Of a stretch of 39,682 nucleotides of DNA, positions 24,047 to 39,682 are shown piece by piece. Origin of the DNA: Patescibacteria group bacterium (GTDB taxonomy: Bacteria; Patescibacteriota; Minisyncoccia; Phycocordibacterales; UBA2100); assembly GCA_021731295.1 (NCBI GenBank), contig JAKFXQ010000002.1:1-39682 (forward strand), given 5' to 3'. A model generated the notes under the pieces. It was given only the letters and a program-made list of their open reading frames with translations. It was not told where the DNA came from and made no database searches. Each line of letters opens with the position of its first letter. Position 1 is the stretch's first letter. The position numbers were made by a program, and so were the translations under genes.

Positions 24047-25828
24047 ATGAAGGATGAACCGCGACCAAGACAAGGCCACAAGGTTGAGAAGGACCTCCCC
24101 CGCCCTCTCCCAGAAGCTAAAGACGGTGCGCGACACTTGGACGACGCTCCATCACAAAGAACGCGCCCGACGGAAATCCATGCATCAATCAGCGACCCTA
24201 AATACGCTGACGTCCGCAAGGCGTTCGAGCGACGCAATGTCCCACTCTATTTAATGCCATACGCACTCGGACTCGATCAACCGCCCTCGAAAGAGTCTGC
24301 GCCGAATGTGTGGCACGACCTCGAAGCACATAACGTGCGCATGAATCTTGCGCTCGCTTCTTCGTACGAAAAACATCTCAAGCGTGCAAAGTCAGACAAG
24401 GAGCCCGAGTACGGAGAGGCGTGGCACGCCTCTGGTGAAGCATGGGATGCACAGGACCGCGAACGCGCTAAGAAAGCAGAGGCTGCCGGCACGCGACATG
24501 ACCGACTCCCTGCTGCGACGCCAATTGGTTCGTACGACATCCGACGCACAAAAGATTTGCCGCCAATGTCCGAAGAATTCCATCGGCGCTTGCGCGAATA
24601 CCCTGCCGCGGTGAACTACGGCATTTTGATGTTCACCCGTTCCCTGCGCGAATGGGAGTACACGGACGAACGCCTGCAAAAGTTTGCACAAATGTTCGCC
24701 GATAAAATTGAAGAAAAGGCATTCCGCGCAAACCCAAACGCGCGCGATAGAACGCAGTACGAAAATGCGTACTGGGCACTCCTCTCTCTCGGCTGCATAC
24801 AGGAACAATGGGACCGCAAAGGACGACGCACGTCACACCCCGAAGTGCGCGTGAACATGCCTGAAGTGGAGAAGCAGATGCACCGCTTCCTCTTGCTGGA
24901 AGAAATCCAGAGACTTGAGAAGGAGCAGACGAATGCTGATACGTCGCAGCGCGACGACATCCAGCACCGCCTCGCTGCCTTGCGCGCTGCACCTGCGTAT
25001 CAAGAAATATTCAATGAGTACGTAGCGGATGAGCGTGGCGCAGACGTCACCGCATTCGAAGAGAATCGCCCGACGACCATCGTCGAGGCGCTTGGTAACC
25101 GTCTCTACGTGACGGCATCTACATTACCTATCACTGAAGACGAGATTGATGCGGCCGTGGCGGATGATTCGCCGGAGGCTCCATCAACTGAACACTTGCG
25201 CGGCGCGCTACTACACAAACATCGCCTCCTTGGTCGTCTCCGCGCGAACCTGTCTCGCGACATAACAAGCGCTGACCGCGACATTGGGACTCTGCTGAAA
25301 TATCTCGCGGCCGAAGGCGTGTGGAATGACAGCGTTGAGAGTGGTTTCGATTTAATAATGAAGAGCGTTATCCAGAGCACACAAGAACTCGATAAAGTAG
25401 CCCAGCTTCTCCACGATGCGCGCAATGACGTTCGTTTCGGCCCCCAACATGCGTCAGTGTTTAAAACACACGAAGAGGCCTCAGTGAAATTAGGTGATAT
25501 GGTGCGCACGAGCAAGAAATACCTCCTCCGTGCATGGCACGCGCATCACACGCCGGAAGTCGGCGGCGCAGAGCTAGAAGCATCGCAGGAACTCGCGGAG
25601 ATGCTGAGTAACGAGCTGGAGTTCCTCAAAGACGAGGCCAAAGATAACGTCGCGGCACTCACGGCATTTCAAGACAAGATTACGTCTCTCGTTGAGCACA
25701 TGAGCGACATTGGTAGCCAACAAGACCTCGCCCGTGAACAGATAGTCATCAAGATGCGCCTCAAGGCCGCACTTGATGCACTCTCGACATATCTCGCCGT
25801 TATTAATCCTGACGCCACGAAAAACTAG
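24047..25828 (+). CDS. hypothetical soluble helical protein (593 aa)
   Basis: Long ORF; stop lies 1 nt from the next ATG (aactagtATG). Confidence 0.75.
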   Translation: MKDEPRPRQGHKVEKDLPRPLPEAKDGARHLDDAPSQRTRPTEIHASISDPKYADVRKAFERRNVPLYLMPYALGLDQPPSKESAPNVWHDLEAHNVRMNLALASSYEKHLKRAKSDKEPEYGEAWHASGEAWDAQDRERAKKAEAAGTRHDRLPAATPIGSYDIRRTKDLPPMSEEFHRRLREYPAAVNYGILMFTRSLREWEYTDERLQKFAQMFADKIEEKAFRANPNARDRTQYENAYWALLSLGCIQEQWDRKGRRTSHPEVRVNMPEVEKQMHRFLLLEEIQRLEKEQTNADTSQRDDIQHRLAALRAAPAYQEIFNEYVADERGADVTAFEENRPTTIVEALGNRLYVTASTLPITEDEIDAAVADDSPEAPSTEHLRGALLHKHRLLGRLRANLSRDITSADRDIGTLLKYLAAEGVWNDSVESGFDLIMKSVIQSTQELDKVAQLLHDARNDVRFGPQHASVFKTHEEASVKLGDMVRTSKKYLLRAWHAHHTPEVGGAELEASQELAEMLSNELEFLKDEAKDNVAALTAFQDKITSLVEHMSDIGSQQDLAREQIVIKMRLKAALDALSTYLAVINPDATKN

Positions 25829-25829
25829 T

Positions 25830-28800
25830 ATGGACGATTTCGAGAAACGAGCAGCAAACAGGCGTGCCGCGCTAGATAAAATCCATAATCTTCCTACCGG
25901 CTCACTCGGGCGTCCCGACTTAGCGGCGGCCGTTCAGGCGGCACAGAACATCGCGCCCGACGCTCAGCAGTCGGCACATGCAACTCCCTCTCCGGAATCA
26001 GCGCCAGCAGAAGCTCCCATCTCTTCAGTCGACGTATCTGAACAAGACACGAATGCGTTCATCGGCCTACTCGGAAAACAGGATGGCGCAACGGTGACAA
26101 CGACGGAGCTCTACGACGCGTACAGTGAATGGGCAGATGCACGAGGAAAAACACCAGTAGCTCCACCAATATTCCTCAATCAGCTCGCGAAGAAGGGACT
26201 TAAGCCAGGCCGCTTCGGAGGACGTCAGCGCATTAAGGGTGTCGTCATCCCGACGGCGGAGCAGATAGTGGCATCTACGAATCCGTCTATCGAAGCTCAA
26301 ACAAATACGGCCGCACAGGCGTTATCGCAATCCTTCGACACGTCTAAAGAACACGCCCAGAAAATGTCTGTCCTCTTCGAGGGTCGCGGCATTACCGATG
26401 CTGCAGCACTCGAAAAGCACATGGGCGAAATTGCAGCGAAGATGAAGGCGGCACAGGATGCTGCGCAGGGTCAAGACCCATCCGTAGGGGCGGCTCTCGT
26501 ACAGGAAGCCATCAAAGGCACCATAGTCGAAGACTTATCACGCGAATTTACGGGAAGTAAGCCCAACGAGCTCATTGGATTGCTTCTCAGTCATGCCGCA
26601 CATACCGGTGAAGTTCCCAAGAATGTCCGTGAACATCGTAAGACGGGGAAAACCGGCGATGTGCTTTTACGCAACGCGTGGGCGTCCAAAGGTGGCGAAC
26701 TTCTGACGAGCCTCATGAACATTGGGCCGGTTACCGCGGGCGTCGTGACTACTGCCCTCTCTATGGGATATGTGGGCATCGGCAGCGGCACTATCGTCCC
26801 TGTGGTGACCGCGCTCATCGCGTTAGACTTGATGACCAAGAACAGTATCCGCGGAAAAATTGCCGAGAAAGGCAGCGTGCGCAAAGGTGTCGGCGCGTTC
26901 ATCACACAACAACCGCTACGCGCGTTCTTGTACACGGTCGCCTCCGGAGCAGTTATCTACAGTTCTGGCAAAGCAGCCGTTCGCGCAGATTTGGACACGC
27001 TGCTGAATGCTGGTTCCGCGCGCTCCGTTCAAGAGAGTGCAAACAAACTGCGCGCCCCGCTTGAGGAATCGGCCAGGGTTATGGACAACTACGTTACCGC
27101 TATTGCCGCTCTCGAAAAAGCAGTTCCTGGTATCGAGAGTGGTCTCGGTATGGAGACGGAACTCGCCACGATTAAAGAAACAGGAATTCAGGTCAAGCCG
27201 GGCACACGCGAAGGCGAACCAATTTTCGGTCCACGTGCTGCTCAGAAATTCGCTATATTTCATGGCACCGTCCAAGAAGAACGCGTCCGCGCAGTGCTCC
27301 CGAATGTGTACATCGATGGCTCTGCCAAGGGAAAGGCAGTAGAAACGCTCGTAAAAAAAGCACTCGAAGGGCGACGGGCGCTGGGTCTTGTCGATGGTCA
27401 GCCCGTATCGGCGCGCGTCTCTGAACTCTGGCGAGCATATCTGTCTGCGACCGCCGATAAGCGCGCAGAGGCTCTTGATGTGATAAATGAGCTCGGCCGC
27501 ACCAGCGCGTCGTTGGGAAGCAGAACCTTTACGCAAAACATGGTTACGACCATTGTGCAGCCCTATTTCGAACTGGGAGAGTTTATAGACCAACTCAAAA
27601 GCGGTTCACAAGCCGGACTCGACCAAAAAAGGAAAGTCGAGTCTGCGGCTCGCCGTGCACTCGAGACTCTTGAAAAAGATTTTGCGGGGCGCCCCGAGTA
27701 TCGCCGATTAGTTGAGAGACTGGGTGTACCGGATGCGCCTACAGCAACCGAAGTCGCACCCACGGCGGAGCAAGGCCTGCAGGAGAAACAGCAGTTGGCG
27801 ATGCGCGTCCGCACTCTCTTCCAACAAATTGTAGAATCGTTTCAAGATTCCGAAGCGGCGCAACGCTATCTCACTATCATTGATCAGTGGTCGCGAGAAC
27901 TCCTCGGCGACGCCCACGGTGGAACAGCAGTTGATGCGCGTTATATACAGGAACGCTCTGACCGATTGAACGTGCTGTTTAAAGAGATTAATGCTGACTA
28001 CGCGAAAACCAAGCGGAGCGTAGATACCTTGGCCAAAGGCATCGAGAGACTCTTGCAGCAGGTAGACGAAGGCGTGGCGACGGAGGCTCCGCAATTCTCA
28101 CTCCCGCAAGTGAGCGTTGATGGTGCTATCCTGCCGGCACAGAGCATCCTGATGTCGAGCGAAGAACTGGCGACCTACCGTGCAAAACACGGCGATGCCG
28201 TCGCCTACAGCCGAATTGCAGGTGCCTTTGGTATTGCGGCGCTCCTCAACTTCTTCTTCCTGCTCATTACGATGCCCGCACTCGCCGCGAGCGGCAGACG
28301 CTCCAAAGTGGAGGTAGACGAAATGCTTCCTAAACTTTTGGGTGCAGCACGCACAAGAAGTGTGGCGCTCTCGGAATCCATAAATGCAATCATGTCGCCG
28401 TTCATAAAAATTTCTACGGGGGTCGCAGTGAAGCTCACGGATCCCGAGCAGATAGAATTTCTTATGCGCACGAGCGCGCGCGAGAAAGGTCGTCCTCCAG
28501 TTCCTGTCGCTGGTGCAGCATTCGACAAACAAGACCCATCGAACAACAGTGTGCAGGAATTTTCACGCGCGGTTGCCGACACCCTTGAGTTCTGGCAGCA
28601 AGAAACGGCGAGCTCGGTCGTGCGCGCGAACTTGTATGCGGATGCCGTGCGTTCTCTCGAAACGAAGAAAGGTCTCAATCAGCTTATCGATCGCGTCATG
28701 CCCCGCGGCTCCGAGTGGCTCGCAGGAAAATTGAATCCAGAGGATCAGAATCGTGTCGTCGCCCAAGCCATCGCTGACAGAGCGCGATTTCTCGAGCTGC

Positions 28801-29159
28801 GCCAGCGCTCAATACGCGAACTCACCAAAGGAATCCAAAGTCATCGCGACATGCCACCAGATCAGAAAGAAGCGCTCATCAAACACCTCGGTCAGCGCGA
28901 ACAGACAGACACGCAGGAACTGACGCATATTCGAACCGGACTACTTGCCCTTCCCGCATACAACGCGTGGTACGCATCCGAAAACCCGACACGAATCTAC
29001 GACGGCGCATCGAGCTCACGAGTGCGCATAGCGGTAAAATCAGGATTTAAAGACATTCCCCTGAATGAACTAAATCTCACGCCGGACGCTGGTCTGCTCG
29101 CGAACCTGTATTCTGATGCGCTCGCTGCAACCAAGCAGCCAACGAGCACCCAGCCATAG
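25830..29159 (+). CDS. large hypothetical membrane protein (~1109 aa) with N-terminal primase-C-terminal-like winged-helix segment
   Basis: Long ORF, start set at MDDFEKRAANRR; hydrophobic stretches near 26695-26835, 26915-26975 and 28206-28295; ELYDAYSEWADARGKTPVAPPIFLNQLAKKGLKPGRFGGRQRIKGV near 26047-26250. Confidence 0.75.
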   Translation: MDDFEKRAANRRAALDKIHNLPTGSLGRPDLAAAVQAAQNIAPDAQQSAHATPSPESAPAEAPISSVDVSEQDTNAFIGLLGKQDGATVTTTELYDAYSEWADARGKTPVAPPIFLNQLAKKGLKPGRFGGRQRIKGVVIPTAEQIVASTNPSIEAQTNTAAQALSQSFDTSKEHAQKMSVLFEGRGITDAAALEKHMGEIAAKMKAAQDAAQGQDPSVGAALVQEAIKGTIVEDLSREFTGSKPNELIGLLLSHAAHTGEVPKNVREHRKTGKTGDVLLRNAWASKGGELLTSLMNIGPVTAGVVTTALSMGYVGIGSGTIVPVVTALIALDLMTKNSIRGKIAEKGSVRKGVGAFITQQPLRAFLYTVASGAVIYSSGKAAVRADLDTLLNAGSARSVQESANKLRAPLEESARVMDNYVTAIAALEKAVPGIESGLGMETELATIKETGIQVKPGTREGEPIFGPRAAQKFAIFHGTVQEERVRAVLPNVYIDGSAKGKAVETLVKKALEGRRALGLVDGQPVSARVSELWRAYLSATADKRAEALDVINELGRTSASLGSRTFTQNMVTTIVQPYFELGEFIDQLKSGSQAGLDQKRKVESAARRALETLEKDFAGRPEYRRLVERLGVPDAPTATEVAPTAEQGLQEKQQLAMRVRTLFQQIVESFQDSEAAQRYLTIIDQWSRELLGDAHGGTAVDARYIQERSDRLNVLFKEINADYAKTKRSVDTLAKGIERLLQQVDEGVATEAPQFSLPQVSVDGAILPAQSILMSSEELATYRAKHGDAVAYSRIAGAFGIAALLNFFFLLITMPALAASGRRSKVEVDEMLPKLLGAARTRSVALSESINAIMSPFIKISTGVAVKLTDPEQIEFLMRTSAREKGRPPVPVAGAAFDKQDPSNNSVQEFSRAVADTLEFWQQETASSVVRANLYADAVRSLETKKGLNQLIDRVMPRGSEWLAGKLNPEDQNRVVAQAIADRARFLELRQRSIRELTKGIQSHRDMPPDQKEALIKHLGQREQTDTQELTHIRTGLLALPAYNAWYASENPTRIYDGASSSRVRIAVKSGFKDIPLNELNLTPDAGLLANLYSDALAATKQPTSTQP

Positions 29160-35600: not shown

Positions 35601-35777
35601 ATGTTCGGCAAAATATCTGACTTCTCCGGCGACATTGAAATCGTCGTCTTTCCAAAAGCGTACGAGGAATACTCGGCGCTCTTCGCGCCTGGTTCCTGCA
35701 TTATGCTCAAGGGGAAGTTCTCCGACCGGAACGGCCAAGCGAGCTTCATTGTGGACAGAGTGAAAGCGATGGCTTGA
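32601..35777 (+). CDS. dnaE: DNA polymerase III subunit alpha
   Basis: PHP start LHLHTHSHYSLLEA; catalytic PDIDMDIADNRRDDLIEYARRTYG; GTFGTMLARAAVRDVSRALG; ALYRPGPM; C-terminal OB-like domain. Confidence 0.96.
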   Translation: MSRDFLHLHTHSHYSLLEALPKIEELVAAAKADGQSALALTDNGNMYGAIEFYKECVKQGVKPIIGVDFFVAPRTRHDKEHKTDENPTRLVLLARDDAGYHNLIQLVTASHLEGFHIDRPRIDRALMQKHSEGLVALVPARDSEYMRALESGSPDRAEESLRALKAIYGEHCFIEHCVHPEIEGFATRMKSALALAAQLKLAPAASQDVSYLAPDDATARELVDHIRTGRTLNRDVETALPDLSFMTRERAQNVFSEYPDSIETAARIAEMCSLSLTLGKAIFPEFPIPAGSSADAELLAKAEKGITERGLADTPELRARIDHELKIIAQKGYASYFLIVSDLLTHAREDGIYTNTRGSAAGSMVSYLCGITTVDPMAFQMPFERFLNPERPSAPDIDMDIADNRRDDLIEYARRTYGADHVAQIGTFGTMLARAAVRDVSRALGYSYGLGDKIAKMIPFGKQGFPVTIDSSLDEVPELKDAYKKDPEAREILDLARRVEGNARHVGVHAAGVVIAPKPVIDYIPIQLDPKGGKTITQYDMYSIADEYGGIGLLKFDFLGLTNLTVLADSVARVKQRVGADVDLERISQEDTKVYEMLTRGETLGVFQMASSGMTAYLKELQPTVIHDLNAMVALYRPGPMAFIPEYIERKKNPARVRYLDPRMETILKPTYGILIYQDDVMMIAVELAGYSWGEADKLRKAMGKKIPEEMRAQKDRFIKGVIDRGMNPATAEELWQQIETFAAYGFNKAHAASYGNLAYKTAYMKANFPVDYMAALLTADSGDVEKVAETIAECVRMKLAVKEPRINESFGTFTVEDNTTIRFGLYSIKNFGTGIADSIIAERTKNGRFTSIGDFISRVTDKNLNKKSLEALIMSGALDEFAERGRLLSNIENLVSHHREHTKVSASQDSLFGAGVTSDATIELSPAPAATQEQKLAWEKELLGYYISGHPLDKFKEALAKQKFDIKTAKETFPRNIETVIAGYLESTRVLLTKKGDKMMFGKISDFSGDIEIVVFPKAYEEYSALFAPGSCIMLKGKFSDRNGQASFIVDRVKAMA

Positions 35778-35989
35778 CGCCGCACGCGTACGCCTCTACC
35801 ATTCCGGAATCAGAGATTGCGTCGGCTACCACCCGACGGCCCAGGCGCCGCAGAGGCCTAATCTGATGAACGAGAGCCCGCACTTGCGGGAAGCTAGGTG
35901 GAACCGCGGCTTGTCTGCCGAAAGGCAGATCCAAGATCGCCCTGGCATGTGTGCGAAGCAATTCGTACAGATGCCAGGGCGTTTTTATT
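35778..35989 (+). promoter_or_regulatory. T-box riboswitch leader of thrS
   Basis: T-box motif AGGTGGAACCGCGG (TGGAACCGCG at 35899-35908); antiterminator GCTAGG (35893-35898):CCTGGC (35941-35946) and GCG:CGC around the TGGAACC bulge; overlapping terminator; thrS downstream. Confidence 0.93.
35938..35989 (+). terminator. intrinsic terminator of the T-box leader
   Basis: CGCCCTGGCAT-g-TGTGCGAA-gcaa-TTCGTACA-g-ATGCCAGGGCG followed by TTTTTATTT. Confidence 0.93.
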
Positions 35990-36005
35990 TACCTAACTAA
36001 AGCAT

Positions 36006-37250
36006 ATGTCAGAACATGAGATGAACGAGAGGGACCATAAGAAGCTGGGGCGCGAGCTCGACCTCTTCACCTTTTCCGACGTGGTCGGCAAGGGGCTTCC
36101 GTTGTGGACTGCGAGAGGCGCGGCTATTCGTCGCGAAATCGAGCGCTTTATCCAAGATGAAGAAATAAAGCGTGGATACAGCCACGTGATGACACCGGAC
36201 ATTGCGAAACTGGGTCTGTATGAAAAGAGCGGCCACTATCCGCACTATAAGGACTCGATGTACCCGCCGTTGACCACAGAGGAGGGCGAAAGCTTCATGC
36301 TCCGCCCGATGACGTGCCCGCATCACTTCGAACTCTATCTTTCGAAACCACACAGTTACCGCGAATTTCCAATTCGCTACGCGGAACTCGCGAAGCTCTA
36401 CCGCTACGAGCAGTCAGGAGAACTCATGGGGCTCCAGCGTGTGCGCGGCTTCTGTCTCTCTGACGCACACATCATTTGCTCGTCGGAAGAACAGGCGGTC
36501 GAGGAAGTTCACAAGGCGCTCGATTTGATTGAGTATGCAAACGGTGTCCTTGGCCTTCAGATGGGCAAGGATTACACCTATCGCCTCTCGCAGGGCGACC
36601 GAGCGAACACCGAGAAATACTTCAAGGACGACGCGGGGTGGGAGAAAGCAGAATCGCTCTTGCGCGAAGCGATGCAAAAACGCGGCGTGCCGTTCGTGGA
36701 AGCGAAAGACGAGGCGGCGTTCTACGGACCGAAAATCGACATTCAAATGAAAAACGTGAACGGCAAAGAAGATACCGCCTTCACGGTTCAGTACGACCTC
36801 TCATCGCCAATCAAATTCGACCTTACGTTCACGGGCGACGACGGAAAGCAGCATCGCACGTACATCGTGCATCGTTCCTCCATCGGCTCCATAGAGCGCA
36901 CCATGGCGTTTCTCATCGAGAAGTACGCTGGCGCGTTCCCGTTGTGGCTATCGCCGGAACAGGTGCGCATTCTTCCCATTTCGGAGAAGCATGTCGAGTA
37001 TGCGAACGAGGTAAAGCGTGTACTCAATGAGGCTGGAATCCGCGTGGAGCTCGACGCATCCAATGAATCCCTCGGGAAGAAAGTACGCTCCGTAAAGACG
37101 GAGAAGGTTCCCTACTGGCTCGTCTTGGGTGATCAAGAAGTAAGTACGGAGACAGTTACCGTCGAGCATCGAGAGAAAGGAAAAGTTGGGTCCGCAACAC
37201 TGCAGGAATTTGCGGTATCGCTGAAAGAAGAAATACGTACACGCGCATAA
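36006..37250 (+). CDS. thrS: threonyl-tRNA synthetase lacking TGS and editing domains
   Basis: Class II core from DHKKLGRELDLFTFSDVVGKGLPLW; MLRPMTCPHHFELY; GLQRVRGFCLSDAHIIC; IVHRSSIGSIERTMAFLIE; C-terminal anticodon-binding domain; 414 aa. Confidence 0.95.
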   Translation: MSEHEMNERDHKKLGRELDLFTFSDVVGKGLPLWTARGAAIRREIERFIQDEEIKRGYSHVMTPDIAKLGLYEKSGHYPHYKDSMYPPLTTEEGESFMLRPMTCPHHFELYLSKPHSYREFPIRYAELAKLYRYEQSGELMGLQRVRGFCLSDAHIICSSEEQAVEEVHKALDLIEYANGVLGLQMGKDYTYRLSQGDRANTEKYFKDDAGWEKAESLLREAMQKRGVPFVEAKDEAAFYGPKIDIQMKNVNGKEDTAFTVQYDLSSPIKFDLTFTGDDGKQHRTYIVHRSSIGSIERTMAFLIEKYAGAFPLWLSPEQVRILPISEKHVEYANEVKRVLNEAGIRVELDASNESLGKKVRSVKTEKVPYWLVLGDQEVSTETVTVEHREKGKVGSATLQEFAVSLKEEIRTRA

Positions 37251-37718: not shown

Positions 37719-39682
37719 CTAGTCTTTGAGAACGCGTGTCGTCATCATCGGCGCGAGTGCTTCCTCTTCTTCCTCATCGTCACGCGGCGCAGGACCGGAG
37801 ATTGGCGCGAAGAGTGCGAATGCATCTGCAAACGCATTCCTGCGGCGCTGCGTAATCATATACGCGCCGAATCCTGCGATGGACATCACCGAGAACGAGA
37901 ACGCCATGCCTGCGGCATTGTCTCCGAGACCGGTATACGGAATCTGCGAGAGCGACACGAACGGGTTCGCAATATTCACGATTGGGGGTGGAATATACGG
38001 AGGCGGCAGGACAACAGGCGGTTGATACGGAGGTGGTGGCGGAGGCGGCAAGACATGCTGCGTCTCACACGTCGCCGAGCCGCCAGAGCCATACACGGTC
38101 ATCACGTATTGCGAGTACTGGTGCATGCTGACTTCGCGCGATCCGGAGACCGAGACACTGCCGATGCCGTTGTTTATCGACGCAGACGAGGCGTACTGCG
38201 AGCCCCACGTCAGTGTCGCCTTGTTGTGTCCGTACCAACTTCCACCGTAATTCGAGAGTGAAATCCAGCACGATGGTGTCGGATTGTGATGTGGAGGCGG
38301 CGGTAGATGCTGCGTAAAGACCGTTGTCGCACACTGCGATGACTGCCCGTTGTGTCCGTAGACTGTCAGCGTGTACGTCTGCGTGCCGTAGATGTTGTAC
38401 GCAGTGTAGTTACCGTTTGTGGAAACGGACCCGACGTTCGTGAGCGACGCCGAAGAAGCGTTCTGCGAATTCCACGTCAAGTTCGTCGAACCGCCGTACG
38501 ATACTTGAGACGGATTTGCCCAAATGGAACAGCTTGGAGTCTGATGCGTGTCTGCGACGGTAATCGTCGTATGGCACTGGTTCGAACCGCCCGGACCGTA
38601 GACCGTCATGGTGTACGTGCGAGTAGACGCGATGTCTGAGGCCGTGCGTGTGCCCGAAAGCTGAACGCTACCGATGTTGTTGTCTATCGTTGCGGACGTC
38701 GCGTTGCCGGTTACTGTCCATTGCAAGACCGATGAGCCATATCGTTGCACATGAGACGGATTTGCCCACAGTGCGCACGATGGACGGTCGTGACTTTCCT
38801 CAACCACGACAGTGGTCTGACATTGTGCGGTGCCGCCCGAGCCCCATACCGTAAGTACATACGTTACCGTATTCCACAATGCGCCCGTCGAGCGCGAGCC
38901 GTCAATATCAACATTTCCGAACTGAGAGAGTGATGCCGAAGATGCCCGCTCGGAATTCCAACGAAGTGTGGTGGATTCCCCATTCGAAAGCGATTGCCTG
39001 TCTGCGTGAATGTCACACACGGGCGGATCATAATCAGGAATGTCGGTGACGATTATCTGAACGGAGCACTGCACAGAGCCACCACCGCCCGTAAACGTCG
39101 CCGTATATGTTTTGTTACTGTGGATAGGGCCGACCTCACGATTACCCGTCACCGACACGTCACCGATTCCGTTATCAATGGATGCCGATGTCGCGCCCGT
39201 TGAATCCCAATAGATGCGCGTTTTGTCGCCCTTGAAAATGTACTGCGGATCCGCCCACATCGCGCAGACAGGATCCTCGTGGTAGTACCCCTGCGAGTAG
39301 TACGAGGCCTCGGCGTAGTAGCCACCCTGATGGTAGTAGTCACCCTGGGTGTAGTAGCTCGCTTCAGCGTAGTAATCACCCTGCGAGTAGTACGTCGCTT
39401 CCGCGTAGTAGTTGCCTTGGTTGTAATAGTCACCCTGAGAGTAGTAGGCCGCTTCAGCGTATCCGCCTCCATCACCTCCACCATCGCCACCCGAATCACC
39501 ACCGGAGTCGCCGCCACTGTCGCCGCCACTGTCTCCTCCCGAGTCACCACCGGAATCCCCCTGTCCGAAAGCAGTGTTCAGCTGAATCGAACCAGTATCT
39601 ACGTATGAAAATGGAAGAGACGACGCCAAGAGAAGCGTCGCTGAGAGAAGTATGATAGCCGCGCCGACTGCCGCGCAGACGT
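37719..39682 (-). CDS. secreted/cell-surface repeat protein, 5' end beyond the window edge
   Basis: Frame is open to the edge, encoding a signal-peptide-like VCAAVGAAIILLSATLLLASSLPFSYVDTG; DSGG repeats, Y/Q/G-rich repeats, five Ig-like Cys-pair repeats, Pro-rich linker, IPYTG + TM + RRR + acidic tail. Confidence 0.85.
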   Translation of the reverse strand, partial: VCAAVGAAIILLSATLLLASSLPFSYVDTGSIQLNTAFGQGDSGGDSGGDSGGDSGGDSGGDSGGDGGGDGGGYAEAAYYSQGDYYNQGNYYAEATYYSQGDYYAEASYYTQGDYYHQGGYYAEASYYSQGYYHEDPVCAMWADPQYIFKGDKTRIYWDSTGATSASIDNGIGDVSVTGNREVGPIHSNKTYTATFTGGGGSVQCSVQIIVTDIPDYDPPVCDIHADRQSLSNGESTTLRWNSERASSASLSQFGNVDIDGSRSTGALWNTVTYVLTVWGSGGTAQCQTTVVVEESHDRPSCALWANPSHVQRYGSSVLQWTVTGNATSATIDNNIGSVQLSGTRTASDIASTRTYTMTVYGPGGSNQCHTTITVADTHQTPSCSIWANPSQVSYGGSTNLTWNSQNASSASLTNVGSVSTNGNYTAYNIYGTQTYTLTVYGHNGQSSQCATTVFTQHLPPPPHHNPTPSCWISLSNYGGSWYGHNKATLTWGSQYASSASINNGIGSVSVSGSREVSMHQYSQYVMTVYGSGGSATCETQHVLPPPPPPPYQPPVVLPPPYIPPPIVNIANPFVSLSQIPYTGLGDNAAGMAFSFSVMSIAGFGAYMITQRRRNAFADAFALFAPISGPAPRDDEEEEEALAPMMTTRVLKD
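39280..39463 (-). repeat. Tyr-rich low-complexity repeat region (YAEAxYYxQGDYYxQG)
   Basis: YAEAAYYSQGDYYNQGNYYAEATYYSQGDYYAEASYYTQGDYYHQGGYYAEASYYSQGYY. Confidence 0.85.
39461..39560 (-). repeat. 12-bp coding repeat encoding (DSGG)6(DGGG)2
   Basis: GDSGGDSGGDSGGDSGGDSGGDSGGDGGGDGGG. Confidence 0.9.

Follow-up and report, generated by a model that had tools for sequence, protein, structure and literature searches.

Most T-box riboswitches that act on transcription, or else those with a short Stem I, require an elbow-binding Stem I module or a Stem II, and for those of the terminator type the elbow-binding Stem I is said to be a general requirement (PMC7583486). The gene regulation of Patescibacteria is almost unknown, and a 2024 review speaks of riboswitches in the phylum merely as a possible future means of controlling expression (PMC11665869). 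None of the open-licence papers covered by our literature search links T-boxes to Patescibacteria. We analysed a window of 39,682 nucleotides (the whole stretch of DNA under study, from one MAG) in which the leader of the threonyl-tRNA synthetase gene thrS is almost certainly a transcription-terminating, Thr-specific T-box riboswitch, predicted to sense the charging of tRNA-Thr. A T-box controlling thrS had been proposed for this place in a first-pass annotation, and the proposal is borne out by covariation in 27 thrS leaders, by an ACC or ACG specifier and by U73 in tRNA-Thr.

The leader fills the gap between dnaE, whose stop codon ends at 35777, and thrS (Table 1). The encoded ThrS has the core and anticodon-binding Pfam domains only, without the N-terminal TGS/editing part, and its nearest relatives are from MAGs of Parcubacteria and Kaiserbacteria, in agreement with the Patescibacteria host that had been suspected. 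Same-genus relatives carry either the short form or one that is about 47% identical and often longer. Elsewhere in the window, at 24047-29159 and 37719-39629, there are long open reading frames of 593, 1128 and 636 aa with no NCBIfam or Pfam match. The -35 box of the leader promoter overlaps the dnaE stop codon, and the promoter ends six bases upstream of helix P1. In the 27 homologous thrS leaders the best match to a -35/-10 pair stops 5-13 nt upstream of P1 and agrees with on average 9.6 of the 12 consensus letters, where shuffles reach 7.2 (p <= 0.05 in 20 of the 27), the commonest form being TTGACA-17-TANNAT. Given this conserved promoter, the 5' end of the transcript most likely lies near 35809, that is at about P1, and not at 35778. 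An RNA that begins there is too short at its 5' end to hold a longer Stem I, and the leader indeed lacks a long Stem I bearing the AGAGA/GNUG elbow-binding loops.

Table 1. Features of the thrS leader and of thrS in the window
Feature	Position	Strand	Description	Evidence
Sigma-70-type promoter	35774-35802	+	TTGACG (35774-35779), 17-nt spacer, TACCAT (35797-35802)	
Helix P1, 5' strand	35809-35814	+	AUCAGA; closes the tRNA-reading domain	Covariation
GAUUG	35815-35819	+	Near-invariant; faces CUAA (35858-35861)	Alignment
Specifier hairpin	35820-35838	+	CGUCGG-CUACCAC-CCGACG; ultrashort Stem I, 19 nt	Covariation
Specifier codon	35828-35830	+	ACC (Thr), followed by purine A35831	Alignment
Variable hairpin	35839-35856	+	Within the P1-closed junction	Length differs among relatives
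Helix P1, 3' strand	35862-35867	+	UCUGAU	Alignment of 27 leaders
Purine string, Stem III, AA	35872-35892	+	Purine string GAGAG	RRRxG-stem III-AA motif of T-box discriminators
Stem III	35877-35890	+	CCCGC-acuu-GCGGG	
Antiterminator	35893-35946	+	A1 GCUAGG/CCUGGC, A2 GCG/CGC, apical arm 35910-35935	
Helix A1	35893-35898, 35941-35946		GCUAGG pairs with CCUGGC	
T-box core	35896-35908	+	AGGUGGAACCGCG	
T-box bulge	35899-35905	+	UGGAACC	UGGA (35899-35902) complementary to tRNA 3' UCCA
Helix A2	35906-35908, 35938-35940		GCG pairs with CGC	
Intrinsic terminator	35938-35990	+	19-bp stem (35938-35981), -36.3 kcal/mol; U tract UUUUUAUUU (35982-35990)	
thrS	36006-37250	+	Threonyl-tRNA synthetase, 414 aa	TIGR00418, 482 bits, profile 165-564 of 565

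Homologous leaders were sought at 80 named loci, fetched via ThrS from Parcubacteria and Patescibacteria records, and a motif scan together with reading of the loci gave a real T-box leader before thrS at 16 of them; motif matches due to chance, such as the one at L070, were set aside. A scan of the whole genome with the core pattern was useful at zero or one mismatch only, as at two mismatches the matches did not outnumber those of the reversed control. The shared order of the leaders is a promoter, UCAGA-GAUUG, a hairpin with the loop CUACCAA, the variable hairpin, CUAA-UCUGA and purines, followed by Stem III, AA, CUAGG-UGGAACC-GCG, CG(C/U)-CCUAG inside the terminator, the U tract and thrS. 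For ten relatives and the window, RNAalifold predicted P1, the specifier hairpin, Stem III and the antiterminator, with compensatory changes at 12 of 26 pairs. A covariance model, R1, recovered missed and more distant copies, and in the resulting alignment of 27 leaders to R1 standard pairs make up 96.4% of the pair cells, compared with 78.1% when shuffled and 33-48% (at most 47.9%) when slid by one to three columns. Double changes occur at 19 of the 26 pairs, and both sides have changed in 134 cells, where shuffles give 33. The covariation score is 0.578 compared with 0.214, and none of 500 shuffles reached the observed value. The 27-leader alignment leans towards the structure since it was fitted to it, but an alignment of 11 sequences made with MAFFT, which is not structure-fitted, agrees with the result. 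Covariation in related thrS leaders, which had been put forward as a check of the T-box, is thus present.

The part of the leader that would read the tRNA (35809-35867) is closed by P1, in which all six pairs have two-sided changes among the 27 leaders. The specifier hairpin has double changes at six of six pairs and 99.4% of its cells paired, and its loop of 7 nt holds the Thr codon. The specifier is ACC in 22 and ACG in five of the 27 leaders, with a purine as the next base in all 27, and it thus varies in the third codon base only. This fits Thr codons, because tRNA-Thr GGT and tRNA-Thr CGT, both present in the genome, read them; the constant AC might, however, be structural, and the specifier test therefore supports the reading and does not decide it. 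Between P1 and Stem III there is a linker of merely 7-19 nt in the 27 leaders. A K-turn is found at the base of Stem I in nearly all T-boxes, though not in all, and the conserved GAUUG/CUAA module sits at the place where it is expected, without clear tandem G-A pairs. We weighed a K-turn reading and did not adopt it; the module is probably a non-canonical one.

The 3' half of the leader has the discriminator motif RRRxG-stem III-AA as defined in PMC7583486. In all 26 leaders that reach that far, AA stands directly 3' of Stem III, and the core has a 7-nt UGGN-ACC bulge between A1 and A2. Helix A1 has 99.4% of its cells paired and double changes at three of six pairs, and its two strands change together (CUAGG/CCUAG becoming CUCGG/CCGAG), whereas the changes in A2 are one-sided only. 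The terminator with its U tract ends 15 nt upstream of the thrS start, and CGCCCUGGC is common to terminator and antiterminator. The first-pass annotation had put the T-box at 35778-35989, and its core, antiterminator, bulge, Stem III and terminator all lie where it had them, as does the mutual exclusion of the two folds, in both of which CCUGGC takes part. It had overlooked the tRNA-reading domain, and its 5' limit gives way to the RNA start at about 35809.

The whole leader folds far more stably than shuffled sequences (z -5.6). The minimum fold of the nascent RNA up to 35958 contains P1, the specifier hairpin, Stem III and the antiterminator; for the complete leader the terminator fold has -89.6 kcal/mol and the forced antiterminator -76.4 kcal/mol, a preference of about 13 kcal/mol. 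This predicted order of folds is what would be expected of a T-box of the terminator type. The promoter, the specifier hairpin, Stem III, the antiterminator, the terminator and a matching anticodon and discriminator base can be read from the sequence and its comparison with relatives; the binding of tRNA, the sensing of its charging and the switch itself would follow from established T-box biology. RNA polymerase would start at about 35809, and the ACC of the specifier loop would pair with the GGU anticodon of tRNA-Thr. In the uncharged state the free 3' UCCA of this tRNA would pair with UGGA in the bulge and hold the antiterminator, so that thrS is transcribed; in the charged state the antiterminator would not be stabilised, the terminator would capture CGCCCUGGC and transcription would stop before thrS.

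The UGGA bulge had led to the prediction that the discriminator base of tRNA-Thr is U, and this was found in all five tRNA-Thr genes of the genome, where U73 faces the A of the bulge. The tRNA genes were called by RF00005 and ARAGORN, which replaced a gapped tRNA-Thr pattern that gave no match. The tRNA-Thr genes that were read in relatives have U73 as well. Apart from tRNA-Thr, U73 was seen only in tRNA-Cys in this genome, and the A of the bulge is informative for that reason. Against the T-box reading we count the bulge UGGG in two relatives (L057 and L059), which can form only a wobble with U73.

The hairpin at 35938-35990 could be thought of as a plain terminator of dnaE that resembles a T-box by coincidence, as it is strong and positioned 3' of that gene. 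A conserved promoter does however intervene between dnaE and the hairpin, the antiterminator, Stem III and specifier hairpin covary in the 27 thrS leaders, and both codon and discriminator base match tRNA-Thr, so that we rejected this explanation as exceedingly improbable. Some amino-acid genes in Proteobacteria are controlled by leader-peptide attenuation, and an attenuator driven by translation of a Thr-codon-rich leader peptide has that general knowledge in its favour. It was also rejected and is hardly credible here, since the ACC is set in the loop of a covarying hairpin rather than within a series of Thr codons, and no part of the T-box discriminator motif is missing.

A relic T-box that has lost its control over thrS in this genome is very unlikely, if a little less so than the other two. 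It would fit the patchy distribution of the element on the ThrS tree, where the trait is scattered and changes state at least 14 times among 102 rows, in a tree that cannot tell gain from loss, and where the nearest relatives (L032 and L033) are without it. The absence of the element from many close ThrS relatives is also counted against the T-box reading as such. In the window copy, on the other hand, every pair is intact, as are the promoter, the codon, the bulge and the terminator, and the copy scores 98 bits with R1. A Thr-specific T-box that controls thrS remains by far the best reading. On the tree the trait accompanies the short as well as the long form of ThrS.

No Rfam family exceeded its threshold in a cmscan of the window, and for the thrS leader RF00230 gave no match up to E 10, where only chance ones (Srn266, microRNAs) appeared; the RF00230 match which had been suggested as a check therefore fails for this leader and counts against the T-box reading, whereas every further test favours it. 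The gathering score of RF00230 is 93 bits. At E 1e-3 it matches 44 of the 98 near relatives, without passing the cut-off in any, and relatives of the same type that it does detect reach 24-52 bits only. Across the phylum there are matches in 128 of 380 genomes, 13 of them above the cut-off. The standard model consequently detects T-boxes in the phylum, but most, notably those of the Thr type, fall below its threshold. Our R1 searches of Patescibacteria genomes gave matches in 20 of 96 relatives and in 19 of the 380 genomes. The 17 strongest among the relatives are all upstream of thrS on the same strand, and they include copies outside the training set and the second ThrS form. Across the phylum, the match has thrS downstream of it in the window, in G084 and, by tblastn, at nine more loci, and in G469 thrS follows as a later gene; the remaining seven matches, none above 39 bits, seem to be other T-boxes caught via the shared 3' domain.

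It had been suggested that a T-box in this host implies either horizontal transfer or a wider range of T-boxes. As RF00230 finds them in 128 of the 380 genomes, transfer need not be invoked, and the wider range, in line also with the scatter on the ThrS tree, is the better supported alternative, although single copies may have been transferred within the phylum. Some variants of the arrangement were seen along the way. Two T-box matches in G275 (C3:25376-25508 and 25541-25700) lie on one strand with 32 bases between them and probably form a tandem T-box; at L309 a Thr-type T-box is followed by a gene for a GNAT-like acetyltransferase and later by thrS, probably as an operon; and at L091 (2097-2412) an insertion of about 140 bases separates the specifier and discriminator domains.

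The genome has a second T-box, of the Trp type (G000:C3:12363-12517, also L001:1490-1700; RF00230 28.2 bits), with the specifier UGG in an internal loop of Stem I and the bulge UGGC, and its tRNA-Trp has the anticodon CCA and G73. This match gives independent support to the way specifier and discriminator are read. The gene after it shows a weak likeness to indoleamine 2,3-dioxygenase (PF01231, 20.2 bits, below the cut-off), and it would be strange for uncharged tRNA-Trp to switch on an enzyme that consumes Trp. In relatives, codons read by eye are UGG before trpE, UCG before serA, CCC before proA and AUC before ileS. T-boxes in Patescibacteria, mostly below the Rfam cut-off, precede serA, trpE, proA, ileS, aspS, proS, argS, tyrS and hisS (loci L125, L122, L123, L128, L140, L112, L136, L133, L219, L221, L231, L235, L246), and together they would form a broad amino-acid regulon across the phylum. 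A third of the sampled genomes match, with enzyme genes for Thr, Trp, Ser, Pro, Asp/Asn, Ile, Arg, Tyr and His downstream, and the sensing of uncharged tRNA therefore appears to be a widespread form of control in bacteria that are thought to feed on amino acids of their hosts.

In comparison with class I T-boxes (RF00230; glyQ, tyrS and thrS of Firmicutes), the leader shares the UGGN-ACC bulge discriminator, the purine string at Stem III, the competition between antiterminator and terminator, and a specifier codon that matches the controlled gene. It differs in that both a long IDTM Stem I and a Stem II are missing, in going unmatched by RF00230, and in carrying the specifier in an apical hairpin loop instead of an internal loop. 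The absence of both the elbow-binding Stem I module and Stem II is counted against the T-box reading. The glyQ T-boxes without Stem II are similar in that the Stem I domain joins Stem III and the antiterminator directly, but they keep the long elbow-binding Stem I. The class II T-boxes with an ultrashort Stem I (ileS, Actinobacteria; Sherwood 2015 via PMC7583486) also have an apical-loop specifier and no IDTM, but they are translational, with a hidden Shine-Dalgarno sequence, and have a Stem II with S-turn and a IIA/B pseudoknot, where our leader is a predicted transcription terminator with only the short linker, and with an outer helix P1 that encloses the specifier hairpin and a second, variable one. 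We place the leader among the T-boxes, since it shows all the defining features that were open to testing, and not in class II, since Shine-Dalgarno sequestration and the Stem II features are absent. A terminator combined with an apical specifier, and with neither IDTM Stem I nor Stem II, is not described in PMC7583486, and judged from its sequence such a T-box appears to be new. Because the elbow-binding Stem I is said to be required in general by T-boxes of the terminator type (PMC7583486), the reduced Thr type offers a natural way to test which parts a T-box needs to capture tRNA quickly. On balance we favour, with some reserve, that it is a minimal and distinct class of transcriptional T-boxes across Patescibacteria, with the apical specifier loop set in a small junction, without the two parts regarded as necessary for capturing tRNA, and with the variable hairpin or the GAUUG/CUAA module as a new contact to the tRNA.
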